A stretch of DNA of 64,000 nucleotides, taken from Nitrospira sp. CG24A. Its GTDB lineage: Bacteria; Nitrospirota; Nitrospiria; Nitrospirales; Nitrospiraceae. Position 1 is the stretch's first letter. Every line of letters starts with the position of its first letter. The notes beneath the pieces are model-generated. The model was not told where the DNA came from and searched no databases. It worked only from the letters and a program-made list of their open reading frames with translations. This document shows, piece after piece, positions 14,765 through 24,397 of the stretch. The DNA lies in NCBI GenBank assembly GCA_002869925.2, contig NEWT02000028.1:1-64000 (forward strand). Direction: 5' to 3'. The position numbers and the translations under genes were made by a program.

Positions 14765-16177
14765 ATGGAACCGACTACACTGATTCTACAATTGCCAACA
14801 GGTGATAGAACACATCGCCTTTCTTTCCTTCGCTCAAGCACAATGGTCCTCTTTTTTTTCATCACTGCGCTTGGAACCTCTTCGACCGTAATGGGCGCAT
14901 CGACGCCGCCCCAGATACCGCTCTTTGCAGATGCACCAAGCGTAGCGCCTCCGGCAATCGCCCAGGCATTGCCGGCGCCCCAGACACTCAAGCGATGGGT
15001 ACGGCAGCAGCGCACCATCGCACTCAATCCCACAGCACTGGACGTTATGAATCGTCCTCGTACCGAGGCTCACCCCGACGTGACGCTGAACCTTTTTGAT
15101 AATGGGCCTCGAACGCTCGACCTTGACCAGCCCAGCACACATCCCAATAAGACAAAGGTCTGGCGCGGACGGCTGCGTGGAGAAGTAGCAAGCGACGTGA
15201 CCTTGGTGGTTCACGGCACGACCATGGTGGGAACGATTCTGTCGAACCAACGCCTCTACAAGATCGAGTCAACCGGCGGAAATCTTCACCGCCTCATAGA
15301 AATAGACGAGGAAGCCTTGCCCCCTGATGACCACCCCCTTGTGGTAACCGACAAAGATCCCGTTGCCACCCCTCCCGCGAGTGGGACCTCACAACAGTCT
15401 GATACCACTACCGCAGCAACTGGCGACTCGATCGTCGATCTGTTGGTCGTCTACACGTCAACGGCGAAGACCAAGGAAGGCGGCCGGGCTGCGATGGAAG
15501 CGTTGATCACTTTGGGGGTCGATTCAGCCAATCAAGCTTACGGTAACAGTCAAATCGCGATGCAGCTCCGGCTCGTCCGTATGGCCGAGGTGACCTATAC
15601 GGAGTCGGGCAATATGAACACGGATCTCACCCGCTTGCAGAATACCACCGACGGAATCCTGGATCAGGTTCATCAGTTGCGAGACCAGCACAAAGCCGAT
15701 CTCGTCGCGTTGATCGTGGACAATGGAGGCAACTCTTGCGGCATCGCGTACGTGATGACAAACGGGCCGAGTGCCAGCTTCACGAGTTACGCATTCAGCG
15801 TGACGGCGCGTGATTGCATCGCGAACAGTACCCTCGCCCACGAATTGGGACATAACATGGGCAACGCACATGATCGAACCACGGGTGGAACGGGCGTCTA
15901 TCCTTACTCCTATGGGTATCGGGACGAAGTCGGAAAATTCCGGACGATCATGGCCTATGGCTGCCCGACCGTCTCTTGCCCGCGCGTGAAGTATTTCTCC
16001 AATCCACGGCTTCTCTACAACGGACGCCGGCTCGGGATCGATCACACCACCAATCCAGCAAACTCCGCGGACAACGCGCGTTCCATGAACGATGTGCGTC
16101 ACATCGTCGCGGCATGGCGTGCAGCGACCACAGACGTGACGCCTCCGGCTGCACCAACAGGCATCCAGATTCGGTAG
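14765..16177 (+). CDS. Exported M12-like zinc metalloprotease (reprolysin-type)
   Basis: A 470-residue protein with a hydrophobic N-terminal segment (about 26-45) as signal or anchor. A pro-region (about 75-195) ends in LIEIDEEALPPDD. The catalytic domain starts near SIVDLLVVYTSTAK and contains the extended zinc site HELGHNMGNAHD (H359, E360, H363, H369) with the Met-turn TIMAYG (M396). Metzincins of this kind cleave proteins outside the cell. Two cysteines near GCPTVSC may form a disulfide. AGGAG precedes the ATG. The gene directly downstream repeats only its pro-region. Confidence 0.85.
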   Translation: MEPTTLILQLPTGDRTHRLSFLRSSTMVLFFFITALGTSSTVMGASTPPQIPLFADAPSVAPPAIAQALPAPQTLKRWVRQQRTIALNPTALDVMNRPRTEAHPDVTLNLFDNGPRTLDLDQPSTHPNKTKVWRGRLRGEVASDVTLVVHGTTMVGTILSNQRLYKIESTGGNLHRLIEIDEEALPPDDHPLVVTDKDPVATPPASGTSQQSDTTTAATGDSIVDLLVVYTSTAKTKEGGRAAMEALITLGVDSANQAYGNSQIAMQLRLVRMAEVTYTESGNMNTDLTRLQNTTDGILDQVHQLRDQHKADLVALIVDNGGNSCGIAYVMTNGPSASFTSYAFSVTARDCIANSTLAHELGHNMGNAHDRTTGGTGVYPYSYGYRDEVGKFRTIMAYGCPTVSCPRVKYFSNPRLLYNGRRLGIDHTTNPANSADNARSMNDVRHIVAAWRAATTDVTPPAAPTGIQIR

Positions 16178-16300: not shown

Positions 16301-16795
16301 ATGGTCCGCCAATTCACCTCTATTTTTCTCGCTGCCGTGCTGGGCTGTGTCTTCTTCAACCAGATCGTATGGGCTGATGAGCGCCCGATGCCGAAGAGTT
16401 TGTGGCAGACAGTCCTGACTCCTCCCGCCGCAGATCAGCCGCCGACGCCGCGAAGGCCTTGGGTGCTCCGAGATCGAGAGATTGCTCTCGATCTCTCACT
16501 CCTTCACGTCTTGAAGGACGCTGGAGCCAGACCCCATCCTAGGATGACAATTGATCTCTTCGATCGCACCAACCATGAGTTGGATGTCATGTCGACGGTC
16601 TCCCGCAGCAACGATACCGCCATCATCCGCGGTACATTCAAGCCCCCTTCGAGGGGAGACTTTACCTTTGTCGCCAGCGGCAATCTCCTTATCGGAACCA
16701 TACAGATGGGTGATCGTCTCTATAAGACTGAGCACATCGCCAACGGTCGGCTGCGACTGCTCGAAATCGATCCCGAAAAATTGCCACCGGATTGA
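16301..16795 (+). CDS. Truncated paralogue of the metalloprotease pro-region
   Basis: A 164-residue protein with a signal peptide (about 1-25, ending VWA). It aligns by eye with the N-terminal part of the preceding protease: REIALDLSLLHVL, HPRMTIDLFDR, RGTFKPPSRGDFTFVASG, LIGTIQMGDRLYKTE and LLEIDPEKLPPD each match an equivalent segment. It stops exactly where the protease continues LPPDDHPLVV. Just past the stop, another frame reads QPVAMPP, like DPVATPP in the protease. It is therefore probably a frameshifted and shortened duplicate; expression as a free pro-peptide is possible but unproven. Confidence 0.6.
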   Translation: MVRQFTSIFLAAVLGCVFFNQIVWADERPMPKSLWQTVLTPPAADQPPTPRRPWVLRDREIALDLSLLHVLKDAGARPHPRMTIDLFDRTNHELDVMSTVSRSNDTAIIRGTFKPPSRGDFTFVASGNLLIGTIQMGDRLYKTEHIANGRLRLLEIDPEKLPPD

Positions 16796-16996
16796 TCTTC
16801 ACTCCTCCCAGCCCGTGGCGATGCCACCGCTCGCTGATCGCCGATGCGCTGGTCACGCGTGGCTGAAAGGTCAGGCATATCTTTTCGCAAGCCAAGACAG
16901 ACGAACATCGTTTGACGCGGTTTGCGATCATCGACGATGCTACACTCGTCTATCCTCAACCAATCGACCCTCTTCAACTTCCCCGACTCTTCTGAC

Positions 16997-17380
16997 ATGA
17001 TGTGGCACTTATGGCTTGCCGACCTGGTCCTGTGCATTCATGTCGGCTTTGTCTTCTTCGTGATCTTTGGTGGACTACTTGTGCTCAAGTGGCGATGGAT
17101 TGCATGGCTGCACCTGCCGGCTGCTGTCTGGGGCGCGGCCGTCGAATTCACCGGCTGGATCTGCCCACTCACTCCGTTGGAGAATTGGTTGCGCGAACAA
17201 GGTGGAGCGGCCTCCTATCGTTCCGACTTCATCGCACAGTATCTGCTGCCGGTGCTCTACCCTGAGGGCCTGACACACAACGTACAGTTGCTGTTCGGCA
17301 CAGGAGTGGTCGTTCTCAATGCCGCTGTCTATTGGGGGCTCTGGAAAATGCAGATGCGTGGGGTTTCTCGAAATAGGTAG
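16997..17380 (+). CDS. DUF2784 membrane protein
   Basis: A 127-residue protein with about four membrane segments. The pattern LVLCIHVGFVFFVIFGG, then ICPLTPLENWLREQGG, then SDFIAQYLLPVLYPEGL is characteristic of DUF2784. Its function is unknown. Two adjacent ATGs (16997, 17000) are possible starts; neither has a strong ribosome site. A decayed copy of the same gene lies at about 21752-21887, on the other side of the lipid operon. Confidence 0.85.
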   Translation: MMWHLWLADLVLCIHVGFVFFVIFGGLLVLKWRWIAWLHLPAAVWGAAVEFTGWICPLTPLENWLREQGGAASYRSDFIAQYLLPVLYPEGLTHNVQLLFGTGVVVLNAAVYWGLWKMQMRGVSRNR

Positions 17381-18092: not shown

Positions 18093-19016
18093 ATGAACGG
18101 AATGGCCCAACAGACCGACAGTTCTATCATCGGTAGATCCTGGAAACGGCCTTCTCAGTACTGGGACTGGGATGCCATCCCATTTCTGACCATCCATCTG
18201 ATGTGCCTCTTGGCCTTTCTGACTGGAATTCGTTGGGAATGGGTCATACTGGCCATCGGCAGCTATTATCTGAGAATGGTTGCCGTCACGGCAGGATATC
18301 ACCGCTATTTTTCCCATCGCTCGTATAAGACCAGCAGACTATTCCAGTTTCTCTTGGCGTTCCTCGCGATGACATCTGCACAGAAAGGCGTGTTGTGGTG
18401 GGCTGCTCACCATCGGCACCACCATAAAAACTCAGACCAGGAAGAAGATATTCATTCCCCACTGCAACGAGGATTTTGGTTTTCTCACGTCGGATGGATC
18501 CTGTCGGCTCATTCTGTGCCAACCGACATGAATCTCGTGAAGGACTTTCGTCAATATCCTGAAATCTGCTTCCTGAACCGGTTCTACTTCATCCCGCCAC
18601 TCGTCTACGCGCTGCTGATCTACAGCCTATGGGGCTTTCCTGGCCTCATCTGGGGATTTTTTATTTCAACGACTGCGTTGTATCATTGTACATTCTTCAT
18701 CAATTCCCTTACCCACATGATCGGCCGAGTCAGGTACAAGTCCAACGACGGGAGTAAGAACAGTTTCATTCTTGCCATCCTCTGCTGTGGAGAAGGCTGG
18801 CACAACAATCACCATTACTATCAGTTGGCCGCAAGACAGGGATGGTTTTGGTGGGAAGTGGACCTGTCCTATTACATTTTGTCATTCTTGTCGTGGTTTG
18901 GAATCGTGTGGGACCTCAGAGTGCCTCCCGAACACATCAAAGCCAGAACCATCGCTGCCGAACGTGAAGCCCACATGGGCCAGACTCTGCCAGCTCATAG
19001 TACGGGACCGGAATAA
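18093..19016 (+). CDS. Acyl-CoA/acyl-lipid desaturase (membrane di-iron)
   Basis: A 307-residue membrane desaturase of the stearoyl-CoA delta-9 type. The three histidine boxes are intact: HRYFSH (70-75), HHRHH (106-110) and HNNHH (237-241). Four hydrophobic segments lie between them. It would insert a double bond in a saturated acyl chain; position (delta-9, delta-11 or other) cannot be read from sequence. First gene of a three-gene operon: 48 bases to the cyclopropane-synthase-type gene. Its product would be the substrate for that enzyme. Confidence 0.9.
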   Translation: MNGMAQQTDSSIIGRSWKRPSQYWDWDAIPFLTIHLMCLLAFLTGIRWEWVILAIGSYYLRMVAVTAGYHRYFSHRSYKTSRLFQFLLAFLAMTSAQKGVLWWAAHHRHHHKNSDQEEDIHSPLQRGFWFSHVGWILSAHSVPTDMNLVKDFRQYPEICFLNRFYFIPPLVYALLIYSLWGFPGLIWGFFISTTALYHCTFFINSLTHMIGRVRYKSNDGSKNSFILAILCCGEGWHNNHHYYQLAARQGWFWWEVDLSYYILSFLSWFGIVWDLRVPPEHIKARTIAAEREAHMGQTLPAHSTGPE

Positions 19017-19064
19017 TATTTTCACCGCATAGACCCCCTTGAAGGCAATAAAGATAGGCACGCG

Positions 19065-20174
19065 ATGAGCCACAAGCAGAGTATTCAGCGATTGCTCGAT
19101 AAGGCCCAGATCACAATCAATGGGACTCAGCCTGGAGATATCCAGGTCCATAATGAACAGCTCTACGGTCGTGTCCTGGCCGAGGGATCGTTAGGGCTTG
19201 GCGAGTCATACATGGATGGCTGGTGGGATTCCATCCAGCTGGACGAGTTCTTTGCAAAGGTCCATACCGTCCAGCTCGACAAAGACATCGTCGATAAGCG
19301 CCTCATCGTCAATGCCGTCAAAGCGCGCGTCTTCAATATGCAGAATAAACGACTCTCCAAGAGAGTGGCGCAAGAGCACTACAATTTGGACAATGACTTT
19401 TACGAAAAGATGCTGGACCCGCACATGCAATACACCTGCGCCTATTGGAAGGGGGTACAGACTCTCGAAGAGGCGCAAGAACAGAAGCTGGAGTTGATCT
19501 GCCGGAAGCTGCAGCTCCGCAAGGGCGACCGTATCCTCGAACTCGGGTGCGGATGGGGGGGCTTCGCCCAATATGCAGCCAGCAAGTACGGCTGTTCGGT
19601 GGTGGCCCATAATATTTCCTCGGAGCAAGTTGCCTTTGCCCGCCGATGGTGCGCAGGCCTTCCCGTTGAAGTGGTTCAGGGAGATTATCGGGAAGCAACC
19701 GGCGAATTCGACAAGGTCGCGGCCATCGGTCTGACGGAACACGTGGGATATAAGAATTACCGGACGTTGATGGAAACGGCCCATAGCCGATTGAAACCGC
19801 ACGGCCTCTTCTTGCTCCATACCATCGCGAACAATGCCTCAGTCACCACCTCCGATCCATGGTTTGACAAGTATATTTTCCCCGGTGGCATGCTGCCTTC
19901 TGTGGCCCAGCTCGGTGCCGCAATGGATGGGCTGCTGGTGATGGAGGATTGGCACAATTTCGGACCCGATTATGACAAAACGCTCGTGGCCTGGAAAAAC
20001 AATGTGGACAAACACCGGGATGAGTTTAAGTCGAAGTTCGACGAGCGCTTCCATCGAATGTGGCGCTACTATCTGTTATCCCTCGCAGGGGCATTCCGCG
20101 CTCGGAAGATTCACCTCTGGCAAATTGTGATGTCCAAGCAGGGCGTACTGGGTGGATATGAATCGGTGCGGTAA
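19065..20174 (+). CDS. cfa: Cyclopropane-fatty-acyl-phospholipid synthase-type methyltransferase
   Basis: A 369-residue protein close in length and motifs to E. coli Cfa. The N-terminal lipid-binding part carries EGSLGLGESYMDGWW, then HYNLDNDFYEKMLDP. MQYTCAYWKG holds the conserved C125, LGCGWGGFAQY (160-170) is the SAM site, and LTEHVG holds E225, equivalent to the bicarbonate-binding glutamate of Cfa. It adds a SAM methyl to the double bond of unsaturated phospholipid chains. Known products in the family are cyclopropanes or, where a partner reductase is present, methylene/methyl branches. Five bases separate it from a FAD reductase gene, which argues for the latter here (inference). Confidence 0.9.
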   Translation: MSHKQSIQRLLDKAQITINGTQPGDIQVHNEQLYGRVLAEGSLGLGESYMDGWWDSIQLDEFFAKVHTVQLDKDIVDKRLIVNAVKARVFNMQNKRLSKRVAQEHYNLDNDFYEKMLDPHMQYTCAYWKGVQTLEEAQEQKLELICRKLQLRKGDRILELGCGWGGFAQYAASKYGCSVVAHNISSEQVAFARRWCAGLPVEVVQGDYREATGEFDKVAAIGLTEHVGYKNYRTLMETAHSRLKPHGLFLLHTIANNASVTTSDPWFDKYIFPGGMLPSVAQLGAAMDGLLVMEDWHNFGPDYDKTLVAWKNNVDKHRDEFKSKFDERFHRMWRYYLLSLAGAFRARKIHLWQIVMSKQGVLGGYESVR

Positions 20175-20179
20175 CTGGC

Positions 20180-21523
20180 ATGATCTCGCAGCAGGAATAC
20201 GCCGGCAAACGAGCACGAGCGGTGACAGCCCTTCGCTCGATGAACGTGGCCGATCCGCTCGCGCTTGAAAAAACCACATCCAATCTATTCCGGCAGCGCG
20301 CGCAAGCGCGCGTGCATCGGCTCGACCTGCGAGATTTCAACCATGTGATCCACGTGGATGAACAGGCGCAGCTTGCCGAGGTCGAGGGCTTGACGACCTA
20401 TGAAGAGCTGGTGCGAGAAACACTCCCGTTCCAGCTGATGCCCACCGTCGTGCCCCAACTCAAATCGATCACCATTGGGGGAGCCATCGCCGGCATCGGG
20501 ATCGAATCGTCTTCATTCAAATATGGCTTTGTGCACGAAACAGTGCAGGAACTCGAAATTCTTCTTTCCGATGGACAAGTGGTTGTGGCGACGAACACGA
20601 ATGAGTACAGCGACTTATTTTTCGGTTTCCCCAACTCCTATGGCACGCTGGGGTATGTGTTGAAGCTGAAAGTGAAGCTCATTCCCATCAAGCCATATGT
20701 CAAACTGACACACCACCGATACTCAGACTGGGAACAGTATTTCCGTGAGATCGGGCGATTGTGCAGCGAGCGGTCTGTGGATTTCATCGACGGGGCGATG
20801 TTTCACGACAAGGAACTCTATATCACGACGGGGGAGTTCATCGACCACGCCGAATGGGTCAGCGACTATACCTACCGGCAAATGTACTATCAATCGATCC
20901 AGCACAAAAAAACGGACTATCTCACCGCGCATGACTATCTCTGGCGGTGGGACACCGATTGGTTCTGGTGCTCCAAACAATTTTTCCTGCAGTACTCCGT
21001 GATGCGGTGGCTCTGGGGAAAAGAACGTCTTAATTCCACAACGTATTGGAAGGTCTTGAAGTGGTTCCGTCACTCACGCGCTGCGCAATGGGTGGCCAGG
21101 ACAATGCGGGGGCGGCAAGAAGCCGTAATCCAGGACGTCGAAATCCCGATCGAACATGCGCCTGATTTCGCGCAGTTCTTCCATGAGGAGATTGGAGTCA
21201 AGCCGGTCTGGGTCTGTCCTGTGACTGCCTATGACCCATCTATCTCGTATTCGTTGTATTCCATGAAACCTCACAAGTTGTACGTCAATTTTGGATTCTG
21301 GGACGCGGTCAAGACCGAGCACGAAGAGGGGTATTTCAATAAAGCCATCGAAGCCAAGGTGCGACAGCTCCATGGCCAAAAGTCCCTCTATTCGACTTCG
21401 TTCTACTCCCGAAAAGAATTTGGAGAGTTGTACAACGAAGGAGGCTATCGCCAGCTTAAGATGCGATACGATTCCGCGGGCAAACTCAACAATCTTTATG
21501 AAAAATGTGTATTGAAGAAGTAG
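20180..21523 (+). CDS. FAD-binding oxidoreductase (DWARF1/DHCR24- and TmsA-like), candidate methylene-acyl reductase
   Basis: A 447-residue flavoprotein of the VAO/FAD-binding-4 type. LDLRDFNHVIHVDEQAQLAEVEG and LPFQLMPTVVPQLKSITIGGAIAGIGIESSSFKYG form the FAD domain, with GFVHETV following. The C-terminal half, with SLYSMKPHKLYVNFGFWD, resembles the sterol delta-24 reductase branch. In actinobacteria a member of this branch (TmsA/BfaA) reduces 10-methylene acyl chains made by a Cfa-like enzyme (TmsB/BfaB). The adjacent Cfa-type gene and upstream desaturase suggest the same chemistry here. This is a context-based assignment; other alkene reductions are possible. Confidence 0.75.
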   Translation: MISQQEYAGKRARAVTALRSMNVADPLALEKTTSNLFRQRAQARVHRLDLRDFNHVIHVDEQAQLAEVEGLTTYEELVRETLPFQLMPTVVPQLKSITIGGAIAGIGIESSSFKYGFVHETVQELEILLSDGQVVVATNTNEYSDLFFGFPNSYGTLGYVLKLKVKLIPIKPYVKLTHHRYSDWEQYFREIGRLCSERSVDFIDGAMFHDKELYITTGEFIDHAEWVSDYTYRQMYYQSIQHKKTDYLTAHDYLWRWDTDWFWCSKQFFLQYSVMRWLWGKERLNSTTYWKVLKWFRHSRAAQWVARTMRGRQEAVIQDVEIPIEHAPDFAQFFHEEIGVKPVWVCPVTAYDPSISYSLYSMKPHKLYVNFGFWDAVKTEHEEGYFNKAIEAKVRQLHGQKSLYSTSFYSRKEFGELYNEGGYRQLKMRYDSAGKLNNLYEKCVLKK

Positions 21524-21751: not shown

Positions 21752-21887
21752 TCAATCTGCCCGCTTACGCCGCTGGAGAATTCGTTGTACGTGCAGGGCG
21801 GCAAGACTGTCTATATCTTCCGACTTCATCGCACCGTATCTACTGCCCGTACTCTACCCTGAGGGCCTAACACGTGAGCTTCAATAG
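21752..21887 (+). pseudogene. Decayed C-terminal fragment of a second DUF2784 gene
   Basis: ICPLTPLENSLYVQGG in one frame is followed, after a frameshift, by SDFIAPYLLPVLYPEGLTRELQ in another. Both match the intact DUF2784 protein at 16997-17380, and the nucleotide sequence is also similar. The N-terminal half is absent. Same orientation as the intact gene. Confidence 0.8.
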
Positions 21888-22089
21888 AAGAAGTTTCTAC
21901 CGTGATCCCTTGTATGACATCGAAGCTGTAAGATAGGCTGTATATCAAGGACTCACAATTGGGCCAGTGTGAGTGACTCTGCTCTCCCCTCCATGTTCTG
22001 GGGAACCTGAGGGGAAACAGAATTGACGTACCGGCTGGGAGTTGATACATGCACAGGCCTACATCTGTGCAATCGTCTGTGAGGATACT
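21888..22089. other. Intergenic region upstream of arsM
   Basis: About 200 bases between the DUF2784 remnant and the arsM start. It presumably carries the promoter for the arsenic operon. I could not see an unambiguous promoter or ArsR-type operator. Confidence 0.4.
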
Positions 22090-23277
22090 GTGACACTAGA
22101 TCAGATTACCCAAAAAGTCAGCGAACGATATGCGCGTGCTGCGTCAACGGGCGAACAGATGTGCTGTCCGACCAGTTACGACATGGCCGAGCTTCAATCC
22201 TTCATCCCGGAAGAAGTGCTGAAGATTTCATACGGCTGCGGGACACCGGCTGGGCTCAAGACCGTCTCCTCTGGGGAAACGGTACTGGATATCGGTTCAG
22301 GCGGCGGCATTGATTGCTTTGAAGCCTCTCGGCTCGTGGGCCCCACTGGCCACGTCATCGGGATCGACATGACCGACACGATGCTGGCCATCGCCCGAAC
22401 GCATGCCCCCGTCGTCGCAGCTAACCTTGGATATGCTTCCTCCAACGTCGAGTTTCGCAAAGGGATGGCAGACGCGATGCCTGTCAGCGATGGTACCGTC
22501 GATCTGATCATCTCCAACTGTGTGATCAATCTGGCGCCGGACAAACACAAGGTTTTCCGAGAAATGTATCGCGTCGCCAAACAGGGAGGGCGATTTACGA
22601 TTTCGGATATCGTGGCCGATCAACCGGTTCCACAATACTTGGTCCAGGACGCTGACAAGTGGGGTGACTGCCTCTCCGGAGCGTTGACACTCACCGGCTA
22701 TATTGCGGGAATGGCGGGGGCCGGCTTCTTAGGCATTCACCTGGTCAAAGCCTCACCCTGGCAGGTCATCGACGGCATCCATTTCTTTTCCGTCACCTTG
22801 ACGGGATATAAGCTTCCCACACGCTCTCCTCAACCGGATATGCAATATGCCACCCTTCGAGGGCCGTTCAGTCGAGTGGTTGATGAACTGGGCACGACTC
22901 ATCTTCGAGGCATTCCTCAGCTGATGACTCCCGACGCTGTGTGTCTGTTGAGCCAGACCTCGTTGGCAGCTCATTTCGTCCTATCCTCCGAGCCTCTCTG
23001 GCTGGATCAAACCGACGACCGATGGACCGCCATATACCCGGCAGACGCTCCATGTACCTGGCAAGGGCACTTTGCCATGCTCGCCGGACCCTTCGTCGAA
23101 GCTGCCGATGACGATCACCATGTGTATCGCCGAGGCGAACCGGTGGAAATCTGTTCGAAGACTCTACACGTAATAGAAACTGACGGCTACGCTCCCCATT
23201 TTGCGATCATTAACCGTGCAGGCCAACATGTCAGCGGTGAGGCCGTCACCTGCGCCCCCAATAGGAGTTGCTGCTGA
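22090..23277 (+). CDS. arsM: Arsenite S-adenosylmethyltransferase with C-terminal extension
   Basis: A 395-residue protein. The first 265 residues have the ArsM layout: CCPTSYD (C25, C26), SYGCGTPAGL (C50), VLDIGSGGGIDCF (SAM site 66-77), GIDMTDTML, ISNCVINLAPDK (C144) and WGDCLSGALT (C194). The cysteines coordinate As(III). A further 130 residues of unknown fold end in a CC pair, which might bind arsenic. The GTG at 22090 with GAGGA four bases upstream is preferred over the TTG at 22042. It lies 80 bases before arsS, the usual partner in arsenosugar synthesis. Confidence 0.85.
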   Translation: MTLDQITQKVSERYARAASTGEQMCCPTSYDMAELQSFIPEEVLKISYGCGTPAGLKTVSSGETVLDIGSGGGIDCFEASRLVGPTGHVIGIDMTDTMLAIARTHAPVVAANLGYASSNVEFRKGMADAMPVSDGTVDLIISNCVINLAPDKHKVFREMYRVAKQGGRFTISDIVADQPVPQYLVQDADKWGDCLSGALTLTGYIAGMAGAGFLGIHLVKASPWQVIDGIHFFSVTLTGYKLPTRSPQPDMQYATLRGPFSRVVDELGTTHLRGIPQLMTPDAVCLLSQTSLAAHFVLSSEPLWLDQTDDRWTAIYPADAPCTWQGHFAMLAGPFVEAADDDHHVYRRGEPVEICSKTLHVIETDGYAPHFAIINRAGQHVSGEAVTCAPNRSCC

Positions 23278-23356
23278 TGCGTGGTGACGCTGAGTCAGGC
23301 AGAAGATCTCGGTGAGTCGGTCTCGAAACGGGCCATGCCATTGTGACTAAAACCCT

Positions 23357-24397
<1,041 letters not shown>

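Follow-up and report, generated by a model that had tools for sequence, protein, structure and literature searches.

Gene content and conservation of the locus

The window analyzed here is the first 64,000 nucleotides of contig NEWT02000028.1 from Nitrospira sp. CG24A, and at positions 18093 to 21523 it carries three genes encoding a membrane acyl desaturase, a Cfa-type S-adenosylmethionine (SAM) methyltransferase and a flavin adenine dinucleotide (FAD)-dependent oxidoreductase of the BfaA (TmsA) family. All three reading frames are open and on the same strand, and their coordinates bear out the tight spacing given in the first-pass annotation, with gaps of 48 and then 5 nt. Judging from sequence comparisons, the trio is very probably a self-contained cassette, its predicted products being membrane fatty acids that carry a mid-chain methyl branch. 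The features concerned are listed below.

18093-19016, plus strand: membrane acyl desaturase, SCD/DesC1-like (P0001, 307 amino acids), assigned by its FA_desaturase domain, three His boxes and solved relatives
19065-20174, plus strand: Cfa-type SAM methyltransferase of an E. coli-like, BfaA-linked clade (P0002, 369 amino acids), assigned by domain, tree, approximately unbiased (AU) tests and residues
19611-19613, plus strand: codon for methyltransferase Asn183 (Thr197 in E. coli Cfa), a signature residue from the residue comparison
19734-19739, plus strand: codons for methyltransferase Thr224 (Phe238 in E. coli Cfa) and the catalytic Glu225 (Glu239), from the residue comparison
20175-20179, plus strand: 5-nt junction from the methyltransferase stop to the flavoprotein ATG, with spacing kept in 26 of 29 locus records
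20180-21523, plus strand: BfaA/TmsA-family FAD-dependent oxidoreductase (P0003, 447 amino acids), assigned by homology, tree, alignment, model and fold search

The cassette is genuine and under selection, and its losses are linked. Measured from the last sense codon to the ATG, the junction between the methyltransferase and the flavoprotein is 8 nt in 26 of the 29 Nitrospiraceae locus records, which include some copies of one genome, and this constancy persists down to 61 to 64% protein identity. The 5-nt junction is likely to reflect translational coupling. Both genes are under purifying selection, with pairwise ratios of nonsynonymous to synonymous substitution rates of 0.06 to 0.17. No conserved fourth gene was found in the cassette, and the flanks vary among lineages.

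In this phylum, BfaA turned up in four Nitrospiraceae genera and nowhere else (27 of 175 Nitrospiraceae genomes; 15 of 296 genomes sampled across the phylum). Among 81 relatives, a gene of the P0002 type accompanied BfaA in 17 of 18 genomes, and the exception is a deletion remnant in a close relative of the window organism (G028), which has lost the desaturase, the methyltransferase and flavoprotein codons 1 to 63. At a locus shared by two other genomes, one (G016) retains an intact desaturase and flavoprotein codons 360 to 447, and the other (G021) has the desaturase alone. The trio is thus patchy and decays by deletion, once losing the methyltransferase and the reductase together. These losses, along with carriers that have no adjoining desaturase, fit a two-gene core of methyltransferase and reductase, supplied by a desaturase with an additional use of its own. 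A CMAS-type open reading frame in another genome (G230, L172:7217-8608) runs from YRLWLD straight to HICRKL without the catalytic Cys stretch and is probably inactive.

Identity and origin of the three enzymes

The only domain matched by the flavoprotein is FAD_binding_4 (PF01565). Its full-length relatives, at 43 to 49% identity, occur in Nonomuraea, Nocardia, Tsukamurella, Prescottella and Variovorax, and it is 43 to 52% identical over its full length to the actinobacterial proteins that adjoin BfaB. The residues W-R-W-D-T-D-W-F-W-C-S and N-x-G-F-W are invariant in 31 alignment rows across many phyla. The structural model (predicted local distance difference test [pLDDT] score, 88.3) matches the folds of cytokinin dehydrogenase and DprE1 at a template modeling (TM) score of about 0.6, and the sequence aligns with these two enzymes only around the FAD domain. 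A Tsukamurella relative (L046) is surrounded by recR, YbaB, amidase, SRPBCC, FAD oxidoreductase and SAM methyltransferase genes, the same layout as described for bfaAB (PMC5660069). The bfaAB genes produce 10-methylstearate in E. coli and yeast (PMC5660069, PMC7791843), and BfaA has been characterized as a reductase in actinobacteria (PMC7791843). Because of the full-length homology, the bfaAB-like layout and the 10-methylstearate product of bfaAB, we treat P0003 as a BfaA-family methylene reductase, an activity that we infer from its family membership. The first-pass annotation had described the protein as DWARF1/DHCR24-like; the closest family to emerge from our searches is BfaA.

The genetic association points the same way. 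A Cfa-superfamily methyltransferase gene is adjacent here and in most relatives, the sampled BfaA-family loci mostly adjoin a CMAS-type gene, and all nine tested genomes with an unlinked BfaA encode a Cfa-type methyltransferase elsewhere. In the tree, the reductases form one family with few changes of partner (8 label changes, against a mean of 41 after shuffling). The pathway class proposed from the first look at the sequence, Cfa-like methylation followed by flavoprotein reduction, is supported by this placement. Two other identities were rejected on family grounds: P0003 is not TmpA, having only PF01565 and a DprE1/cytokinin dehydrogenase fold and not being geranylgeranyl-reductase-like, and it is not UfaD, being an FAD_binding_4 protein and not phytoene-desaturase-like.

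The methyltransferase matches CMAS at 5e-76, exceeds the NCBIfam cut-off for E. coli-type Cfa (544.2 bits versus 400) and keeps all five residues of the bicarbonate site (C139, E239, H266, I268 and Y317, E. coli numbering), so its catalytic residues are intact, as first described, and automatic annotation will label it Cfa. It is 50% identical to E. coli Cfa over 361 amino acids and 37% identical to BfaB over 270, and its model has a pLDDT of 86.8. A blastn search of the gene against E. coli genomes gave no match. P0002 neither groups with Cfas unlinked to BfaA nor retains Phe238 and Thr197.

Outside Nitrospiraceae, the loci compared were the best 80 of at least 588 matches to P0003 in other genomes, with distant phyla under-sampled. 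At the sampled loci, the methyltransferase (METHYLTRANSFERASE) genes beside BfaA fall into distinct classes. The actinobacterial class is BfaB, with the BfaA gene first; a second consists of beta- and gammaproteobacterial enzymes; an E. coli-Cfa-like class occurs in Nitrospiraceae, in Acidobacteriota, in one Verrucomicrobia and one Myxococcota metagenome-assembled genome (MAG), and in MAGs labeled Magasanikbacteria and Woesearchaeota, labels that may be binning errors; and in a Patescibacteria group the gene order is reversed. The Nitrospiraceae enzymes form one clade (support, 100) within a wholly BfaA-linked clade of 18 members (Shimodaira-Hasegawa-like approximate likelihood ratio test, 98), apart from ordinary Cfas. 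A single clade of all BfaA-linked methyltransferases was rejected (AU test, p 8e-59), as was membership of P0002 in BfaB (common clade, p-AU 3.8e-11). The tree and the latter rejection uphold the early impression that this Cfa is closer to the E. coli type than to TmsB. Since the methyltransferase clades are split while the reductases are one family, the methyltransferase was recruited separately and the reductase was not. The notion of an independent assembly of the pathway therefore holds for the methyltransferase only, the reductase being common with the actinobacterial pathway.

Two positions near the active site set the BfaA-linked enzymes apart. At residue 238, next to the catalytic Glu, 9 of 11 control Cfas have Phe, whereas none of the roughly 88 BfaA-linked methyltransferases does. 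Residue 197 is Thr in all 11 controls; the BfaA-linked enzymes of the E. coli-like (32 of 32) and proteobacterial (24 of 24) classes have Asn there. The bicarbonate residues are retained in every BfaA-linked class. Phe238 is kept in the unlinked Nitrospira methyltransferases nearest the proteobacterial class. Seven of the nine genomes with an unlinked BfaA have an unlinked enzyme with Leu238, accompanied in six by Asn197; in the other two, Phe238 is present in the enzymes read, with further copies or fragments outside the reading. The signature is partly phylogenetic, and an effect of these residues on the product is a hypothesis drawn from the alignments.

The desaturase matches FA_desaturase at 1.6e-13 and has the three His boxes HRYFSH (70), HRHHH (107) and HNNHH (237), which were reported as intact at the outset and are the marks, with this domain, of an SCD/DesC acyl desaturase. 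Its best solved relatives are acyl-CoA (stearoyl-CoA) desaturases. It is 50 to 53% identical to cyanobacterial DesC1-type acyl-CoA desaturases, the closest plasmid relatives, 71 to 79% identical to its counterparts in most other Nitrospiraceae trios, and 96 to 100% identical to those in the closest relatives. The built-in desaturase is found almost only in Nitrospiraceae within our sample: outside this family, a P0001-like gene lies near BfaA only at two Amycolatopsis loci (L091 and L097), where it follows bfaAB at a distance of about 0.5 kb and represents a distinct instance of such proximity.

Predicted pathway and competing explanations

Given the BfaA membership of P0003 and the neighboring or unlinked Cfa-type methyltransferase in its relatives, the trio most likely acts on acyl chains in three steps: desaturation, methylation and reduction. 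The desaturase would first place one cis double bond in a saturated chain, its sequence being compatible with delta-9, delta-7 or delta-11 regiospecificity. The methyltransferase, unlike Cfa, would then allow deprotonation of the cation, so that an exo-methylene (or shifted alkene) forms instead of a cyclopropane, and the altered residues beside Glu239 may steer proton loss versus ring closure. The flavoprotein would finally reduce the double bond to a saturated methyl branch, a step assigned because P0003 belongs to the BfaA family, which has been characterized experimentally in actinobacteria. As to methyl position, the substrates of bfa enzymes are chains of the delta-9 to delta-11 type (PMC7791843), and UfaM puts the methyl at C11 of vaccenate (PMC7380195). 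Since the desaturase is DesC1-like, 10-methyl-16:0 would be at least as likely as an 11-methyl product.

In favor of this pathway we count the BfaA homology, the bfaAB-like layout, the co-occurrence and joint loss of the genes, selection, the fixed junction and the residue-238 signature. Several observations weigh against it. The bicarbonate site of P0002 is complete and its score is that of a Cfa, so that cyclopropane formation is compatible with its sequence; residue 238 differs among classes (Cys or Thr in the E. coli-like class, Thr in BfaB, Leu in the proteobacterial class and Met in Patescibacteria), and 2 of the 11 control Cfas also lack Phe (having Val and Ile); the desaturase is not strictly tied to the pair, two carriers (G036 and G362) having none adjoining; and the support, for the window organism and for all trio carriers alike, comes from genes and sequence.

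The same intact bicarbonate site and NCBIfam Cfa equivalog score (544) could instead mean that P0002 is an ordinary cyclopropane synthase and that the flavoprotein, whose fold is like those of DprE1 and cytokinin dehydrogenase, acts on another substrate such as a polyprenyl-sugar or other lipid, the genes being mere neighbors. We regard this as unlikely, since the full-length relatives of the flavoprotein are BfaA and not DprE1, which aligns over the FAD domain only, the cassette is kept without its flanks, the pair is lost together, and F238 and T197 are substituted in all clade members. Enzymes of the vanillyl-alcohol oxidase fold are often oxidases, and this could be taken to mean that the flavoprotein is a dehydrogenase acting on a branched chain, with the trio yielding methyl-branched unsaturated acids in the way that UfaM makes them from vaccenate, with the methyl at C11. 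A precedent exists in the flavoprotein UfaD, which follows UfaM and desaturates 11Me-12t-18:1 (PMC7380195). Such a role is nonetheless very unlikely: UfaD is an NAD-FAD protein related to phytoene desaturases (PMC7380195) and of a family other than PF01565, P0003 belongs to the BfaA family, characterized as a reductase (PMC7791843), and separate amine-oxidase, DUF1365 and CMAS clusters are carried by other Nitrospira. These clusters (L194:6246-13458, L196 and L168), with a DUF1365-like gene, recall UfaD-type neighborhoods.

The preferred reading, methylation and reduction by a bfa-type pair, allows a tentative evolutionary scenario that we put forward as possible, if somewhat short of an even chance. 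E. coli-type Cfas may have become methylene forming through a swap of Phe238, joined in two classes by Thr197 to Asn, with similar changes arising in several classes, each alongside the same promiscuous BfaA; Nitrospiraceae would then have added the desaturase, giving a portable three-gene cassette that is annotated as cyclopropane synthesis.

Genomic setting, related systems and the marker lipid

The window genome (3.36 Mb, 95% complete) encodes ammonia monooxygenase (PF02461), and the host is for this reason a comammox Nitrospira and not N. moscoviensis. Downstream of the trio lies a decayed remnant of a DUF2784 gene (21755-21884), with an intact copy upstream (16922-17380; 80% identity over 121 nt), so that the trio is bordered by an imperfect direct repeat. 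Further out are an ArsM-like arsenite methyltransferase followed by the arsenosugar radical SAM protein ArsS (22042-24397; TIGR04167, 452 bits) and, on the other side, a Mep72-like metzincin protease (14765-16177) with a truncated paralogue of its N-terminal part (16301-16795).

The trio is a variant of the bfa-type pathway, and what is new is the independently recruited methyltransferase and the built-in desaturase. With bfaAB/tmsAB of Mycobacterium and Thermomonospora (PMC5660069, PMC7791843) it shares a BfaA-family FAD_binding_4 reductase adjoining a Cfa-superfamily methyltransferase with a bicarbonate site and the proposed route, in which a monounsaturated phospholipid chain is first methylated and then reduced; it differs in drawing its methyltransferase from an E. 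coli-Cfa-like clade, in the order methyltransferase to reductase and in the desaturase gene leading the cassette. The tmpBA operon of Marinobacter and Desulfobacter (PMC7791843) likewise pairs a methyltransferase with a flavoprotein and has the same predicted chemistry, but TmpA is like geranylgeranyl reductases and has no homology to BfaA, the family of P0003. Compared with E. coli Cfa, P0002 shares the five bicarbonate-site residues and departs in F238 to T, T197 to N and V196 to H, in being paired with a reductase and in belonging to a clade that otherwise consists, in the tree, entirely of BfaA-linked enzymes. The UfaM/UfaD/UfaO furan fatty acid pathway (PMC7380195) also combines SAM methylation of a monounsaturated phospholipid chain with a subsequent flavoprotein, but UfaD is phytoene-desaturase-like and not FAD_binding_4, and the trio has no conserved fourth gene. 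A Streptomyces virginiae plasmid (L179:919-3616) carries a desaturase-reductase-Cfa trio with an F420H2-dependent quinone reductase-like protein, possibly a parallel solution.

The first-pass annotation had proposed the operon as the route to the 11-methyl-16:0 of N. moscoviensis. In the genomes that we take to be N. moscoviensis (G360) and N. defluvii (G133), no BfaA-family protein was found, even with a 30-sequence profile, and the former has no P0002-type methyltransferase; the trio is present in two genomes presumed to be N. japonica and strain KM1. In N. moscoviensis, N. bockiana and N. calida the lipid exceeds 20%, and for N. defluvii none is listed (PMC3660363, Table 3). That N. defluvii lacks both lipid and trio, with three other species above 20% (PMC3660363), agrees with a role of the trio in making the marker in N. 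moscoviensis and its relatives. The correlation between cluster and lipid fails, however, at the type producer itself. N. moscoviensis has two other methyltransferases, which the tree places as sisters to actinobacterial BfaB. Its genome together with the comammox identity of the window organism makes the proposed route hardly credible. A source role for the trio carriers themselves could still hold; in the library of papers searched, we found no fatty acid data for the carriers N. japonica and KM1 and no paper linking Nitrospira, Cfa and a desaturase. A candidate for the N. moscoviensis lipid is a single run on the minus strand (L166:7677-11029, at about 4,143,676-4,147,028 of contig C1) of a desaturase, a small CMAS and the large BfaB-sister CMAS, the first two overlapping by 22 nt, with no adjoining reductase. 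The second BfaB sister of that genome lies at about 2,514,480-2,515,790, also on the minus strand.

Mid-chain methyl-branched acids serve as lipid markers, for example, for actinobacteria and Nitrospira. Our analysis removes the operon as an explanation of the N. moscoviensis marker and offers a concrete candidate locus in that genome instead. If the proposed pathway is correct, the BfaA pathway would extend, among others, to comammox Nitrospira, Acidobacteriota and the beta- and gammaproteobacteria, and the methyltransferases exchanged there carry the name cyclopropane synthase in databases. This would give a hypothesis, at the level of single residues, of what directs a Cfa to form a ring or a branch and would widen the range of possible sources for methyl-branched marker lipids.

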